A stretch of DNA of 64,000 bases, from contig JAIUOT010000056.1 of NCBI GenBank assembly GCA_020161015.1, positions 124,001 to 188,000 of the forward strand, written 5' to 3'. The notes beneath the pieces are model-generated. The model did no database searches. It was not told where the DNA came from and saw only the letters and a list, made by a program, of their open reading frames with translations. Source of the stretch: Actinomycetota bacterium (GTDB lineage Bacteria > Actinomycetota > Actinomycetes > Propionibacteriales > Propionibacteriaceae). Below are positions 22,954-29,142 of the stretch, one piece after another; the first letter of the stretch is position 1, and every line of letters starts with the position of its first letter. Both the position numbers and the translations under genes were made by a program.

Positions 22954-24399
22954 TTGTTGCACGCACTCCCCGACCCGGTGACGTTCGCGTCCCTGGGCGT
23001 TCCCGCCCGCCTGTCCGAGACCCTCGGCCGCGGCGGCATCACCGACCCGTTCCCGATCCAGTCGGCCACGTTGCCCGACACCCTCGCCGGCCGCGACGTC
23101 CTGGGACGCGGACGCACCGGCTCCGGCAAGACCCTCGCCTTCGCGCTGCCGCTGGTGGCCCGGATCGCGCGCCTGGTGCCGTCGGCGTCCGGCCTCGCGC
23201 CGTCCAGTCGTCCCGGCGCCCCCCGCGGGCTCGTGCTCGCGCCGACCCGCGAGCTCGCCAGCCAGATCCTCGCCACGATCGAGCCGCTGGCCTCGGCCGC
23301 CGGCCTGTCCGCCATGACGATCTTCGGCGGGGTGAGCCAGGCGGGCCAGGTGCGCCAGCTCCGCGCCGGGGCGGACATCGTGGTGGCCACGCCCGGCCGC
23401 CTGGAGGACCTCCTGTCCCAGAAGCTGATCCGGCTGGACGCGGTGGCCGTCACGGTGATCGACGAGGCGGACCACATGGCCGACCTGGGCTTCCTGCCCG
23501 GCGTCACCCGGATCCTCGCCGCCACCCCCACAGGTACGCAGCGCCTGCTGTTCTCGGCAACGCTCGACCACGGCGTCGACAAGCTCGTGGCCCGCTTCCT
23601 CGCGCACCCGCTGGTGCACAGCGTGGACACCGCCGAGTCGCCGGTCGCAGCGATGACCCACCACGTGTTCCTCGTCGAGGACGCCTCCCAGAAGCGACGC
23701 GTGGTCCACCAGCTCGCCGGGGGTACGAGCCGCCGGCTGCTGTTCACCCGCACCAAGCACCAGGCCCGCAAGCTGGCCCGCGAGCTCACCGCCGGAGGCA
23801 TCCCCGCGGTCGAGTTGCACGGCAACCTGTCCCAGAACGCCCGTGAGCGGGGGCTGAAGGCCTTCGCGGACGGACGGGTGAAGGTCATGGTCGCCACCGA
23901 CATCGCGGCGCGCGGGATCCACGTCGACGGCATCGACCTCGTCGTCCACGTCGATCCGCCGGCCGAGCACAAGGCCTACCTGCACCGTTCGGGCCGCACC
24001 GCGCGCGCCGGCAACGACGGCGAGGTGATCACGCTGGTGCTCCCGGAGCAGCGCCGTGACTTCACCGGCCTGGCCCGCGCGGCGAAGATCACCGCCCAGC
24101 CGACCGCCGTCCGCGCCGGTGACCAGCGCGTGGCCGACCTCGTCGGCACGCCGGCCGCGGCCGTCGACCCGGGACAGGCCCCGTCCGCCGCGGCACGCCA
24201 GGGCGAGCCGCAGCCGGCACGCCGTCCCCGTCCGTCGTCGGGAACCGCCCGCAGCACCACGGACGGACGCCGCTCCACCGCCGGTGGGCCGCGCCGCCCG
24301 GGCTCCTCGGTCGGCCGGGCCGACAACGTCGTGGCGATCTCACGCCAGGGCACCCGGAGCCGCCGCCACACCGGTGGCGGCCGGCGGCGCAGCGCCTAG
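22954..24399 (+). CDS. DEAD-box RNA helicase
   Basis: 481 residues from TTG 22954. Helicase core motifs in order: FPIQSATLP (Q motif), GRTGSGKT (I), PTRELASQ (Ia), TPGRLEDL (Ib), DEAD at VIDEADHMADLG (II), FSATLD (III), RLLFTRTKHQARKL (IV), TDIAARGIHVDGIDLVVHVD (V), HRSGRTARAG (VI). A ~100-residue Arg/Ser/Pro-rich tail follows, fitting RNA binding. It unwinds mRNA or rRNA duplexes, often at low temperature. TTG is chosen because GAAGGA is 9 bases upstream; the longer frame from 22819 begins in the leader. Its stop overlaps the convergent kinase gene stop by 4 bases. Confidence 0.92.
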   Translation: MLHALPDPVTFASLGVPARLSETLGRGGITDPFPIQSATLPDTLAGRDVLGRGRTGSGKTLAFALPLVARIARLVPSASGLAPSSRPGAPRGLVLAPTRELASQILATIEPLASAAGLSAMTIFGGVSQAGQVRQLRAGADIVVATPGRLEDLLSQKLIRLDAVAVTVIDEADHMADLGFLPGVTRILAATPTGTQRLLFSATLDHGVDKLVARFLAHPLVHSVDTAESPVAAMTHHVFLVEDASQKRRVVHQLAGGTSRRLLFTRTKHQARKLARELTAGGIPAVELHGNLSQNARERGLKAFADGRVKVMVATDIAARGIHVDGIDLVVHVDPPAEHKAYLHRSGRTARAGNDGEVITLVLPEQRRDFTGLARAAKITAQPTAVRAGDQRVADLVGTPAAAVDPGQAPSAAARQGEPQPARRPRPSSGTARSTTDGRRSTAGGPRRPGSSVGRADNVVAISRQGTRSRRHTGGGRRRSA

Positions 24400-24824
24400 C
24401 CCGCCTGCGGTCGCCCGCGGACCTTCCGCGCGCTCCAGACGTTCCCCGCGGCGTCGTGGCGGTAGGTGAGCTCGTCGACCATCAGTTCGATCAGGGCGAG
24501 GCCCCGGCCGCTCTCGGCCTCCTCCCCGGGCATCCGTGGCTCGGGGGGGCCGGCGAGGGGTTCCCCGGTGTCGGTCGTCTCCAGGCGCAGCTCGTCCGCG
24601 GTGATGGTGAGCGCGACCTCGCAGAACACCGGGCGGTGCGGGTTGTTCTGGATCACGTTGGTGACCAGCTCGCTGAGCACGGTCTCCATCACCATGCGTT
24701 CGGGCACGCTGACGTCAGCGCGCTCGGCCCAGACGCGCTCGAGGAAGTCGTGCGCGTCGTCCACGGTGTCCGGCGGGCTGTGGACGACGGCGCTGTAGCT
24801 AGTTCCGGAAGGCGTCATCGGCAT
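24396..24824 (-). CDS. RsbW-like serine kinase / anti-sigma ATPase
   Basis: 142 residues, GHKL ATPase fold: N box ELVTNVIQNN, G1 TTDTGEPL, G2 SGRGLALIELMVDELTYR. In partner switching such proteins phosphorylate a STAS antagonist and hold a target (usually a sigma factor) inactive. No sigma factor is adjacent; the neighbours are a polysaccharide synthase, the STAS protein it overlaps by 26 bases, and a PP2C phosphatase. So its partner may be the synthase or a distant sigma factor. ATG 24824 is used; ATG 24818 is also possible. Confidence 0.85.
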   Translation of the reverse strand: MPMTPSGTSYSAVVHSPPDTVDDAHDFLERVWAERADVSVPERMVMETVLSELVTNVIQNNPHRPVFCEVALTITADELRLETTDTGEPLAGPPEPRMPGEEAESGRGLALIELMVDELTYRHDAAGNVWSARKVRGRPQAG

Positions 24825-25134
24825 TGGCGTACGGCTTCAGGATCCGGTCGACATTCGACAGCTGGAGGACGAGGGCGACCTGCTCGCCCACCCCGGCGAG
24901 CCGCAGGTCGCCCCCGGCCTGGCGCGCGGTCTTGAGCGAGGCGATCAGCGCCCCCAGGCCGGAGGAGTCCATGAAGTCGACGCCCGACAGGTCGACCACC
25001 ACCCGCGGGCGACCGGACTGGACCGCCCGCGTGACGGTGTCGCGCAGCTCGGGCGCCGCGACCATGTTGAGCCGGCCGTCCGGCCGGACGACGGCGATGT
25101 CCTCGCCCACCGGGTCGGTGCGGAATTGCGTCAC
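24799..25134 (-). CDS. STAS-domain anti-anti-sigma factor (RsbV/SpoIIAA-like)
   Basis: 111 residues, a single STAS domain. The phosphorylation segment VDLSGVDFMDSSGLGALIA holds the target Ser at position 57 or 58. GTG 25134 overlaps the TGA of the upstream synthase as GTGA. In the usual scheme the phosphatase (27098-28408) removes the phosphate, freeing this protein to sequester the kinase (24396-24824). Its place right after a glycosyltransferase suggests the switch controls polymer synthesis. The long upstream frame extension is not used. Confidence 0.9.
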   Translation of the reverse strand: MTQFRTDPVGEDIAVVRPDGRLNMVAAPELRDTVTRAVQSGRPRVVVDLSGVDFMDSSGLGALIASLKTARQAGGDLRLAGVGEQVALVLQLSNVDRILKPYANADDAFRN

Positions 25135-27101
25135 TTCTCCTCCTCGTTTCCGGGGTACCCGCGGTAGCGGACGGCACCGACCAGCACGGACATGGCGACC
25201 AGGTCGAAGCAGACCCAGCCGATGTTGACCAGGGTGCCGACAGGCTCGGCGCCCCACACCGCGAGCCGGAGGACTCCGGCCACCACGGCGACCACCAGGG
25301 CCACGGCGGTCACGATCTGCCAGCGGATCTCGCGCAGCGGCCGCCGCTCGGACCGCGTGCCGTCCTTCGGCGTCACCGCGAAGCTGAGGGGTCGCCCGCC
25401 CCAGACATTGGCGGCGGCGGTGACGCACGCCGTGATCCACACCGGGAACAGGGCGATGGTGTACTGCTGCCCCCGCCAGGTCGGCAGGCCACGGGACGCG
25501 ACCAGGAACAGGAGCTGGTTGGCCACCATGAACGGCAGGAACCGCCAGAAGAACGGTCCGGCGTAGCTGTTCACCGGCAGCACCCCCGCGGTCAGGAACA
25601 GCACCGGGGCCACCAGGTAGACCAGGGTGGCGAAGCCGGCGAGGTAGCTCCACATCGTCGAGAAGTACATCAGCCGCTGCGCCGGACGCAGCCCCTTCAG
25701 CGCCAGCGGGTTCTCCCTGAGCAGCACCTGGACCGTGCCCTGGGCCCAGCGCAGGCGCTGGGTGAGGGCCGCCGCGAGTCCCTCCGGGGCGAGCCCCTCG
25801 ACGAGGATCTCGTTGTGGTAGACACTCCGCCACCCGTTCGCGTGCAACCGCATGGAGGTCGCCATGTCCTCGGTCACCGAGATGGTGGCCATCGGCAGCA
25901 GGGCCTGGGCCTCGCCGGAACGGCCGACGTCGATGGCGTCGATCGTGGCGCGCACGGCGTCGAGGGCGTTCAGGGGGCTCAGCTCCTGCGTGGCGAGGCT
26001 GCCGACGATCGCCGCCGACGCGGCGGTGACGCCGTGGTCCTCGATGCCGAGGTCGTCGAGGTCGGCAGCGATGGCCGCCAGGTCGCCGGCGACCGCCAAA
26101 CGGGACAGCTCGGAGATCCGCTCGCCCAGCACGAACGTGACCTCACCCAGGGGCGCGCCGTTGCCCACGGCCGCGAGCGCGTCGCCGACGGCCTCGTGGG
26201 TGGCGACCAGCGCCGCCCGCTCGGCCGGGGTCACCGCCCGGCGCGCGGCGCGGCGAAGGATGCCCCGCGCGTCCTTCAGGCCGGTGACCACCGCCTTCTC
26301 CGTCGCGCTGACGTAGCCGAGGATGCCCAGTTCCATGAGCGCCTCCCGCCGCAGGACGGCGTTCGACCCGCAGAAGAAGGAGGCGCCCCATCCGTCCTTG
26401 CCCTCCTGGATCGGGCCGTAGAACAGCGGCGCCTGGCTGCCGAGCGGGTCGTCGTCGGGGACGTTGTTGAAGTACTGCGGGGTCTGGACGAGGGCCAGCC
26501 GCTCGTCCTGCGCGAAGTAGCCGAGCGTCCGGTCGAGGATGTGGGGGTAGGGCACCATGTCGGCGTCCAGCACCAGGATGAACTCGCCGGTGGTCTGCAT
26601 GAGCGCGTTGTTCAGGTTGCCCGCCTTCGCGTGGCGCGGCTTGCCGGCCCACTCCTCGCCCCGCGTGAGGTAGTCCACCCCGAGCGTGGCCGCGCCGGCC
26701 CTCAGCTCGGCCCGGTCGCCGTCGTCGAGGATCCAGGTGCGGTGCGGGTAGGTGATGTCGCGCGCGGCGCGGGCGGTGTCGAGCACCAGCCCGACCGGCT
26801 CGTTGTAGGTGGTGATGAACACGTCGACGCCGAGCCCGGCGGGGGCGGCCGGCGGCTCGCCCCGCTGGCGTGACTTCCACACCGTCATCCCGAACAGGCT
26901 CAGGTCGACGATGCTGTAGGTCTCGGCCAGCACGAGAGGGACGGAGATCCACCAGGCCGACCAGTTGACCGATGCCCACCACCGCCAGATCACGTAGTTG
27001 AGGCCGAGCAGGATGGTCAGGGCGATCCAGACCCGGAGGAGGGCGAGTCGCCGCGTCTCGGCGGCCTCCCCCTTGTAGGCGCGCGATCCTGGCGGGGTCA
27101 T
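25131..27101 (-). CDS. BcsA-like family 2 polysaccharide synthase with a large central insertion
   Basis: 656 residues. Two N-terminal helices (18-40, 48-72) precede the GT2 core: ILDDGDR (124-130), DAD (179-181), FFCGSNAVLRREAL (242-255), TED (410-412) and QRLRW (448-452), the full processive-synthase set. Four or more C-terminal helices form the translocation channel. Between GSNAVLRREAL and ISVTED, where BcsA has about 20 residues, there is an Ala-rich helical insertion of about 145 residues (258-404). No PilZ domain is present, and bcsB or cellulase genes are absent, so the polymer need not be cellulose and c-di-GMP control is not seen. ATG 27101 overlaps the phosphatase stop (ATGA). Confidence 0.88.
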   Translation of the reverse strand: MTPPGSRAYKGEAAETRRLALLRVWIALTILLGLNYVIWRWWASVNWSAWWISVPLVLAETYSIVDLSLFGMTVWKSRQRGEPPAAPAGLGVDVFITTYNEPVGLVLDTARAARDITYPHRTWILDDGDRAELRAGAATLGVDYLTRGEEWAGKPRHAKAGNLNNALMQTTGEFILVLDADMVPYPHILDRTLGYFAQDERLALVQTPQYFNNVPDDDPLGSQAPLFYGPIQEGKDGWGASFFCGSNAVLRREALMELGILGYVSATEKAVVTGLKDARGILRRAARRAVTPAERAALVATHEAVGDALAAVGNGAPLGEVTFVLGERISELSRLAVAGDLAAIAADLDDLGIEDHGVTAASAAIVGSLATQELSPLNALDAVRATIDAIDVGRSGEAQALLPMATISVTEDMATSMRLHANGWRSVYHNEILVEGLAPEGLAAALTQRLRWAQGTVQVLLRENPLALKGLRPAQRLMYFSTMWSYLAGFATLVYLVAPVLFLTAGVLPVNSYAGPFFWRFLPFMVANQLLFLVASRGLPTWRGQQYTIALFPVWITACVTAAANVWGGRPLSFAVTPKDGTRSERRPLREIRWQIVTAVALVVAVVAGVLRLAVWGAEPVGTLVNIGWVCFDLVAMSVLVGAVRYRGYPGNEEEK

Positions 27102-28408
27102 CGGCGCTCTGCTTCCTTGGCGAGGTCGCGGTGGATGATCACGGCGGTGGCGTCGTCCACCGGCTCTGCGGACGGGTCGGAGCCGTGGCACAGCGCGTCT
27201 GCGAACGCCTGGGGGGTGTCCAGCGCCGGGTCTGCCCTCAGCGTGCAGATCGCGGCCTCCACGTCCGGCACCGACCCTCCCCACCCTTCGAGCACGCCGT
27301 CGCTGACCATGAGCAGCGAGTCGCCCGGGGCGAGGGTCAGCCGCTGCTCGGACCAGTCGCCGCCCAGGCCCACCGGGAGGTCGTTCCCGGCGAGGCGCTC
27401 GACGCGGGTGCCCGCGGCGCGCACGGCGAAACTGAGCCCGTGCCCGGCGTCCGCGAGCCGCACCTCGCCGGTGACGAGGTCGACCGTGGCGTAGCCGAGG
27501 GTGACGAAGGCGTTGCTGCGGCCGAGCTCGGAGTCGACGATCCGGGCGCTGTCGGCCAGCGCGTCCGCCGGCCGGCTGGCCGGGTTCACCGAGCGGAGGG
27601 CGGTGCGCACTGCCGCGGCAAGGATGCCGGAGCCGACGCCCTTGCCCATCACGTCACCGAGGAACACCACGGCGTAGCGTCCCTCGATCCGCAGGTCGTA
27701 GAAGTCGCCGCCCACCTCGCGCGCCGGCACGGCGGACGCCCCGTGATCCCAGCCCGCCCGCGACGGCAGCTCGGCCGGGGAGAGCGCGCGCTGCACCTCG
27801 GCGGCCCGCTCCAGCTCCCTCGCCGCCCGCTCGCGCGCCCGGACGGTGTCGGAGACGTCGAGGAACTGGACGGCCAGCGTGCCCGGGCCGGCGTCGAGGT
27901 CGAGGGGCACGACGCCCATCTGGAACTGGCGGCCGTCCGCCACCTGGAGTTCGAGCCCGAGCTGCCCGGACCGCCCGGCGAGGACGTTGGAGGTCAGGCG
28001 CGCGGCGGCGTCGGCCCCCAGCAGCCGCTCGAGCCACTGCTCGCCGTCCGCCAGCGCGGGCAGGAGACTCGCCGCGGCGGTGTTGTGACGCTGCACCAGC
28101 CAGCCGGAGCCGTCCCTTGCCAGCACGAGCATGCCCGCCAGCGAGGACTCGAAGTTGGTGCGGTAGACCTCTTCGCTTGCGACCAACCGCTCCGTGGCCT
28201 CACGCTCGCGCTGCACGGTGATCGAGATCACCAGCACGATCGCGACCATGGCCAGCTCGAAGGCCTGGAGGAGGGTCCCACCGACGGTCGGCCCGAAGCG
28301 GGGGAAGGAAAAGGGACCTGAGCCGTTCGCGCTGCCGTAGGACGCCACTGCCGCGATCCCGAGCATCTCGACCAGAACCCAGCGAAGGGGAGGGTGAGCG
28401 CTGCCCAC
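27098..28408 (-). CDS. PAS-PP2C (RsbU/SpoIIE-like) phosphatase, 3' part of a frameshifted MASE1 gene
   Basis: The open frame codes for 436 residues. It begins inside the last membrane helices of the MASE1 sensor (LRWVLVEMLGIAAVASYGSA). A PAS-like domain follows (SEEVYRTNFESSLAGMLVLA to FLDVSDTVR), then a PP2C domain: AREVGGDFYDL, GDVMGKGVGSG, LADAGHG, LLMVSDGVLEG, DDATAVII, with the metal-binding Asp residues. It should dephosphorylate the STAS protein encoded two genes on. The N-terminal sensor is encoded in another frame (28228-29142). One extra G in the GGGG run at 28387-28390 would join them into a protein of about 681 residues. Without this the phosphatase may not be translated properly. 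Confidence 0.8.
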   Translation of the reverse strand: MGSAHPPLRWVLVEMLGIAAVASYGSANGSGPFSFPRFGPTVGGTLLQAFELAMVAIVLVISITVQREREATERLVASEEVYRTNFESSLAGMLVLARDGSGWLVQRHNTAAASLLPALADGEQWLERLLGADAAARLTSNVLAGRSGQLGLELQVADGRQFQMGVVPLDLDAGPGTLAVQFLDVSDTVRARERAARELERAAEVQRALSPAELPSRAGWDHGASAVPAREVGGDFYDLRIEGRYAVVFLGDVMGKGVGSGILAAAVRTALRSVNPASRPADALADSARIVDSELGRSNAFVTLGYATVDLVTGEVRLADAGHGLSFAVRAAGTRVERLAGNDLPVGLGGDWSEQRLTLAPGDSLLMVSDGVLEGWGGSVPDVEAAICTLRADPALDTPQAFADALCHGSDPSAEPVDDATAVIIHRDLAKEAERR

Positions 28409-29142
28409 ACCGGCGGCACGATCACCAGGAAGGAGACCGGGAGGTCGTGGTTGGCCATGAACACCACGACGCTGACCACGAGGGCCAGCAGGAGCTGGAG
28501 CGCCAGCTGCGTCCGCCGTACCCCGCGCGCGACACCGGGCAGGCGGAGAAAAAGGGGCGCGACCATCAACATGCCCGCTGCGCGTCGCGGTCCCGCGGAG
28601 AAGAGCTGGGCGACCGCGGCCGGGACGTCACCGATCGCCAGCGTGGTGGCGGCGATGGTGACGTCGTAGGCGGTCGCGGCGGCCATCACCGCCAGGAGGA
28701 GCATCGCGAGGTCGGCGTAGGACGCGAGCCCCGGGGACTCGATCCCGCCCGCGCGCAGGATCATGGCGCCGATCGCCACCTCCACACCGGCGGCCACCGA
28801 CGCGGCGACTCCGAGCGTGACCGAGGAGTACTGGACGAGGTTCACGCCAAGGAGCACGAGCGCGACAGCCACGCTGACGAGCCACAGCTGCCGCCGCGGC
28901 GTCCGCACGGCGAGCCCCAGTGCCAGCCCCGAGGCCGGCCACCAGATCGCGCTCAACGCCTCGGCGGGCCGCGTGAGCACGGCGAACCACCCGAGCGCGA
29001 AGATCCCGAGCAGGATGGCCGCGGGCACGACCATCGCCGGCGGCACGAGCCGCCGTAGAGTGGCCGGGAAGTGAGCTCTGGGGGTGACCAGCACGAACGA
29101 ATCATCGCGCACGCAGCCTCCCGCCGCGACGGAATCGACCAC
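28228..29142 (-). CDS. MASE1 membrane sensor, 5' part of a frameshifted PP2C phosphatase gene
   Basis: The first ~250 residues of this frame form MASE1, a sensory domain of about eight helices: ILLGIFALGWFAVLTRPAEA, SAIWWPASGLALGLAVRTP, VEVAIGAMILRAGG, LFLRLPGVARG, MANHDLPVSFLVIVPPVWAA. After VWAALTLPF the frame drifts into Arg/Ser-rich out-of-frame sequence, so residues ~254-304 are not real. The continuation lies in the 27098-28408 frame. GTG 29142 is the longest start; GTG 29112 after GGGAGG is more likely. MASE1 normally feeds a signal (often unknown) to kinase, diguanylate cyclase or phosphatase domains. A sequencing indel is as likely as a true frameshift. Confidence 0.7.
   Translation of the reverse strand: MVDSVAAGGCVRDDSFVLVTPRAHFPATLRRLVPPAMVVPAAILLGIFALGWFAVLTRPAEALSAIWWPASGLALGLAVRTPRRQLWLVSVAVALVLLGVNLVQYSSVTLGVAASVAAGVEVAIGAMILRAGGIESPGLASYADLAMLLLAVMAAATAYDVTIAATTLAIGDVPAAVAQLFSAGPRRAAGMLMVAPLFLRLPGVARGVRRTQLALQLLLALVVSVVVFMANHDLPVSFLVIVPPVWAALTLPFAGFWSRCSGSRQWRPTAARTAQVPFPSPASGRPSVGPSSRPSSWPWSRSCW

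Follow-up and report, generated by a model that had tools for sequence, protein, structure and literature searches.

The window analysed here, a stretch of 64,000 nucleotides from a draft genome of the Propionibacteriaceae (G000), carries on its minus strand, between positions 24396 and 29142, a tight cluster of genes for a sensor phosphatase, a BcsA-like synthase, a STAS protein and an RsbW-like kinase (Table 1). The gene overlaps claimed in the original prediction were exact, with ATGA shared by the sensor phosphatase and synthase genes (27098-27101), GTGA by the synthase and STAS genes (25131-25134) and 26 bases by the STAS and RsbW genes (24799-24824). Its count of five genes was reduced to four, as the MASE1 and PP2C frames are parts of a single frameshifted gene, which occurs as one open frame in seven relatives (L032, L033, L034, L035, L036, L037 and L039). 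In the window this gene is split by the lack of one base in a C-rich run; the last residues of the MASE1 frame are read out of frame, and the frame of the PP2C starts within the MASE1 domain. The sensor copy of the window may therefore be damaged or misassembled, through either a sequencing error in the draft genome or a real mutation. The same gene is frameshifted elsewhere, around L038:6832-6848, in Propionicimonas sp. S2_20.

Table 1. Features of the phosphatase-synthase-STAS-kinase cluster in the window
Feature	Position	Strand	Remarks
MASE1-(PAS-like)-PP2C sensor phosphatase	27098..29142	-	One gene, 1-base frameshift near 28390-28410
Sensor phosphatase, frames of its two parts	5' part 28228-29142; 3' part 27098-28408	-	Pfam MASE1 and SpoIIE
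BcsA-like GT2 polysaccharide synthase, 656 aa	25131..27101	-	Pfam/NCBIfam; without PilZ
Synthase insertion, residues about 262-404, FFCGS to TED	25890..26318	-	Family-specific; predicted three-helix arm and less certain linker
Stand-alone STAS protein (RsbV/SpoIIAA-like), 111 aa, DSSG phospho-serine motif	24799..25134	-	Pfam
RsbW/SpoIIAB-like GHKL kinase, 142 aa; N-box ELVTN, G1 TDTG, G2 GRGLAL	24396..24824	-	Pfam

Pfam searches of the window identified a SpoIIE-type PP2C domain (PF07228, 110 bits), a STAS domain (PF01740, 79 bits) and, in the kinase, HATPase_c_2 (54.5 bits), together with a MASE1 match of 25 bits that falls below the cut-off of 29.8. Judged by their motifs, the PP2C, the STAS protein with its serine and the GHKL kinase with its boxes are the parts of an RsbU/V/W-type module. 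The phosphatase had earlier been labelled PAS-PP2C; no PAS domain was found by Pfam in the window, even at E 0.1, and the segment between MASE1 and PP2C, which is missing in the relative L034, is PAS-like by position only.

The synthase was matched by the cellulose synthase model TIGR03030 with 344 bits, below the CelA equivalog cut-off of 699 bits, and its nearest solved relatives by both sequence and fold are bacterial BcsA proteins (structures 7lby and 4hg6), which were also the best Foldseek matches of its AF2 model (pLDDT 84). In common with BcsA of the Bcs complex, it has the membrane topology, the GT2 core D, D, TED (residues 410-412) and QxxRW (QRLRW, 448-452), and the FxVTxK gating loop (FAVTPK, 574-579). 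It differs from BcsA in having neither a PilZ domain, for which Pfam gave no match in the protein, nor a BcsB partner, and in possessing approximately 145 extra residues between FFCGS and TED. In the AF2 model the chain stops about 11 residues past the last predicted helix, and the C-terminal region of the BgsA type is therefore absent.

The residues of BcsA that flank the insertion are adjacent to each other in 7lby. The insertion is present in all homologues of the window synthase at a near-constant length and sits directly before the catalytic finger helix. In AF2 models it is a long arm of three helices, predicted with good confidence, and a linker of lower certainty that leads from the arm into the finger helix. 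When compared alone with PDB folds, it gave no match at E < 0.2, and the domain was not found outside the synthase in a 396-genome sample of the phylum, which yielded only two matches overall. As the finger helix and gating loop of BcsA move together in translocation (PMC6821405), the arm would be well placed for a regulatory role.

To define the spread of the cassette, a species-level genome collection was scanned. Full-length homologues, with identities of 54-78%, were obtained at 80 loci, and gene profiles built from these were then applied to 81 loci, the window included. The exact order PP2C, synthase, STAS, RsbW was present at 47 of the 81, and most of the others have the same genes reordered, for example as synthase-PP2C-STAS-RsbW, as PP2C-STAS-RsbW-synthase or with STAS and RsbW on the opposite strand. 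In a class-wide sample of 395 genomes, picked without regard to similarity, strong synthase matches occurred in 24, and STAS and RsbW genes lay directly adjacent to the synthase at 19 of 20 newly fetched full-length loci, the twentieth (L128) being cut by a contig end. When the loci were pooled, both genes were found within 6 kb of the synthase at 100 of 103, the exceptions being L046, L128 and L091, the last of which has STAS while RsbW was not found. The hosts of these 103 loci include Propionibacteriaceae, Nocardioides, Micrococcaceae, Microbacteriaceae and Rhodococcus, among others, and no copy of the cassette was plasmid-borne. The gene order is thus not unique to the genome of the window, which would have spoken against the original prediction; the set recurs across many actinobacterial genera, mostly in the same order.

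In 70 of 74 cases, no more than 20 bases lie between the stop of the synthase and the start of the STAS gene. The median identity to the window is highest for the synthase core (0.64), followed by STAS (0.54), the insertion (0.35), RsbW (0.28) and the phosphatase (0.27). The order of the genes is shuffled yet the set persists (e.g., L108, L053 and L070), and we therefore argue that the set is held together by function and not by mere shared ancestry of the stretch. Among the representatives tested, the phosphatases of relatives of the window carry MASE1, those of Arthrobacter a response-regulator receiver domain, and those of Microbacteriaceae and Rhodococcus a GAF domain; the sensor varies across genera and the output module is constant. 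A second STAS/RsbW or PP2C/RsbW set was observed a few kb from the cassette at L082:5974-6718 and L075:974-2667.

A comparison was provided by nine BcsA-like synthases of the same family and order that are without the ~145-residue insertion. None of the nine had PP2C, STAS or RsbW genes nearby, in stretches of up to 18 kb that mostly covered ~7 kb on each side and in one case stood at a contig end. The contrast of 100/103 with 0/9 gives a Fisher p of about 4e-11 with kinship ignored, and it supports the earlier guess that the insertion matters, switch genes being near-obligately linked to insertion-bearing synthases. Two genomes (G008 and G016) hold both an insertion-free synthase and a cassette, and in these the switch adjoins the insertion-bearing synthase only. 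At L135-L143 the BcsA-like synthase, within this family and order, is of a second type that is free of the insertion and has no switch genes nearby.

The phospho-serine of the STAS protein (DSS) was kept in 100 of 100 cassettes, and the metal-binding Asp motifs of the PP2C (GGDFYD, DVMGKG, SDG and DD) were present in nearly all aligned loci. From these two features the chemistry of the switch is probably intact. The N and G2 boxes of RsbW were likewise kept in aligned loci. About a third of the cassettes, mainly those of Micrococcaceae, have another residue in place of the G1-box Asp, in most cases Ala or Glu. Loss of this Asp in a GHKL kinase would normally impair ATP binding. Kinase activity is consequently doubtful in cassettes of the Micrococcaceae type, and kinases without the G1 Asp may work differently or act as binding proteins, possibly as pseudokinases. 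Examples with a changed G1 box (RVSAFNA and similar) were seen at L045, L048, L055, L073 and L114, where the other two boxes, N and G2, are retained, as is the serine of STAS.

Taken by itself, the gene linkage is also compatible with transcriptional control. Partner switches of the classical kind release sigma factors, and the switch could be dedicated to the polysaccharide and act indirectly, with RsbW or STAS binding an unlinked regulator of transcription (an ECF, WhiG/FliA-like or group-2 sigma factor, or another). The cassette genes look co-transcribed, so that the synthase could be a mere member of the regulon, and potential partners exist: SigA is present in nearly all tested genomes, many have a group-2 or WhiG/FliA-like sigma, and the window genome has an unlinked SigB/F/G-like gene (G000:C39:77412-78077, 222 bits). 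No RsbW-type gene was found on the contig (C39) carrying the latter. A search for SigB/F/G-type sigma factors was conducted on 45 cassette genomes, with matches above 150 bits counted as positive and one genome (G073) excluded as too incomplete. Of the remaining 44, 19 had a match of at least 179 bits; the other 25, with species of Microcella, Curtobacterium and Jonesia among the sigma-less ones, were separated by a clean gap in score. Their matches were limited to sigma factors of the SigA/group-2 kind, at about 130 bits, or of the WhiG/FliA-like kind, at about 95 bits, the names of these weaker matches being assigned from score and length. A SigB/F/G-type sigma is also present in a cassette-free relative (G015), and no cognate sigma gene was found inside the cassette.

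An RsbW profile was further searched against 22 genomes, namely 21 without a SigB/F/G-type sigma and that of the window. A single match was obtained in 16, of which 15 are sigma-less, with one or two extra copies in the rest. The cassette RsbW is thus the only RsbW-type kinase in 15 of the 21 sigma-less genomes, as it is in the window genome, where the PP2C is also the only one of the SpoIIE type. In cassette genomes of the window's genus, a single clear SpoIIE-type PP2C and a single short RsbW-type kinase are present, and the two lie at the synthase. A stand-alone STAS protein occurs once in most of these genomes, other STAS matches being mostly transporter-like frames of about 590 aa. Members of the genus without the synthase are mostly also without PP2C, STAS and RsbW proteins, G010 and G012 holding another PP2C/STAS set. 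These results make it unlikely that the kinase serves a known sigma factor, an outcome that would have counted against the original prediction, and from the gene content a sigma target of the switch is unlikely. The indirect route leaves unexplained why only insertion-bearing synthases have switch genes, and we regard it as the strongest of the alternatives to direct control but an unlikely one.

A second alternative is that the insertion mediates oligomerisation of the synthase and has no regulatory part, in which case the partner switch would sense or serve something different. Helical arms often oligomerise. The P-CR and CSR insertions of plant CesA/Csl proteins are thought to mediate assembly (PMC6821405). 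A role in assembly does not, however, account for the strict co-occurrence of the insertion with the switch genes or for their absence beside the insertion-free paralogues, and we give this possibility rather little weight.

The remaining alternative, in which the STAS protein acts through a diguanylate cyclase and c-di-GMP on the PilZ-less synthase as in the Bgr system of Sinorhizobium meliloti, where BgrU, BgrW and BgrV are reported to govern beta-glucan synthesis through their control of the cyclase BgrR (PMC7647112, PMC8457831), can draw on the one GGDEF protein of the window genome (on C46), but is very hard to reconcile with the lack of GGDEF matches in 12 of 21 cassette genomes (G016, G019, G026 and G028 included), with the absence of PilZ from all 21, and with a synthase that is without the C-terminal c-di-GMP-binding region of BgsA (PMC6821405). 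BcsB was likewise found in none of 18 cassette genomes, and no diguanylate cyclase was linked to the switch genes, the recurring genes of the cassette being PP2C, synthase, STAS and RsbW only. As a general mechanism the c-di-GMP route is improbable, and the proposal that control is exerted instead of c-di-GMP and PilZ gains support. For the window genome alone, the SigB/F/G-like gene and the GGDEF protein mean that a sigma factor or c-di-GMP may yet be involved.

The explanation that we favour, and hold to be somewhat more probable than all others together, is that the four-gene cassette is a dedicated, sigma-independent partner switch that gates a c-di-GMP-independent BcsA-like synthase at the protein level. 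Under this explanation, the STAS protein would be dephosphorylated upon a signal by the sensor phosphatase in the membrane, which is MASE1-PP2C in the window and response-regulator-PP2C or GAF-PP2C in other genera, and the RsbW-like kinase would rephosphorylate it at the DSSG serine, the motifs for both steps being intact in the window. The phosphorylation state of STAS would then determine the partner that is bound, and the one left free would dock on the helical arm and thereby permit or prevent cycling of the finger helix and the gating loop. The chances are about even that the synthase is the output of the switch in this specific sense, with STAS or RsbW binding the arm by the finger helix, gating catalysis and replacing c-di-GMP/PilZ across a large set of actinobacteria, and with the sensors interchangeable. 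We infer the contact of the switch with the synthase, and the direction of control, from co-occurrence, from anatomy and from the absence of alternatives in many genomes.

In the literature searched, the enzymes targeted by partner switches are all diguanylate cyclases, with SiaC acting on SiaD, HsbA on HsbD and BgrV on BgrR. In these sigma-independent precedents the direct effector is a protein of the STAS type, and we therefore lean slightly towards activation of the synthase by unphosphorylated STAS as its ligand, and away from inhibition by free RsbW. Mirror-tree analysis gave no evidence of contact: the partial correlation between the insertion and RsbW (r 0.35) was not above that of rate-matched variable synthase columns (0.37 +/- 0.04). 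Insertion-RsbW partial correlations of 0.42 and 0.36, the latter higher than that of STAS with RsbW, were considered as evidence of contact and rejected, equally or more variable synthase columns giving the same or higher values. No natural fusion of STAS or RsbW to the synthase was found among the loci; long open frames at L011 and L012 were discarded as candidates, being read-through of an over-long frame with the switch genes separate.

Several known systems resemble the cassette in part. It has all three protein families of RsbU-RsbV-RsbW and SpoIIE-SpoIIAA-SpoIIAB of Bacillus, and the phospho-serine and the motifs of the phosphatase are conserved, but it has no sigma gene, and a SigB/F/G-type sigma is absent from more than half of the cassette genomes. 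In SiaABCD and HsbA-HsbD of Pseudomonas aeruginosa, a PP2C, a kinase and a STAS-like protein act directly on an enzyme and not on a sigma factor, leading to biofilm; the target there is a diguanylate cyclase, whereas the only other enzyme of the cassette is a polymer synthase. Closest in output is the Bgr-BgsA system of S. meliloti, where a BcsA-like synthase of mixed-linkage beta-glucan, likewise PilZ-less, is under the control of a PP2C, a STAS protein and a kinase; the target of that switch is reported to be the diguanylate cyclase BgrR, and c-di-GMP to bind the C-terminus of BgsA (PMC7647112, PMC8457831, PMC10374906). The cassette differs in having no cyclase gene, in the frequent lack of GGDEF proteins, in a synthase without the C-terminal domain and in the helical insertion. 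SypA/SypE of Vibrio fischeri and HmpUVW of Nostoc are STAS/kinase/phosphatase switches with a non-classical output in polysaccharide, biofilm or hormogonium development, but the publications consulted describe no synthase with a comparable insertion for them.

Neither a description of this cassette nor a partner switch acting on a polysaccharide synthase was found in the open-licence literature, which mostly does not cover subscription journals, and an earlier description of the cassette elsewhere is possible. To our knowledge, the regulation of processive polysaccharide synthases is understood almost only for c-di-GMP and PilZ. The cassette points to another route of control in many soil, plant-associated and cold-adapted actinobacteria and offers testable parts in the arm, the phospho-serine and the kinase. 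If correct, the favoured explanation would add a membrane polymerase to the targets of partner switching, beside sigma factors and cyclases.

With regard to the product, the synthase is best described as a putative beta-glucan-type enzyme; the sequence does not decide the identity of the polymer, papers on curdlan and on mixed-linkage glucan having been compared. An OpgC-type acyltransferase gene family occurs near the synthase in several genera (14 loci), and a family with a weak GH26 match recurs near it (16 loci). These neighbours suggest a secreted glucan, possibly acylated or otherwise modified, or trimmed. Members of the two families lie within a few kb of the synthase at L053, L058, L070, L075, L085, L099 and other loci.
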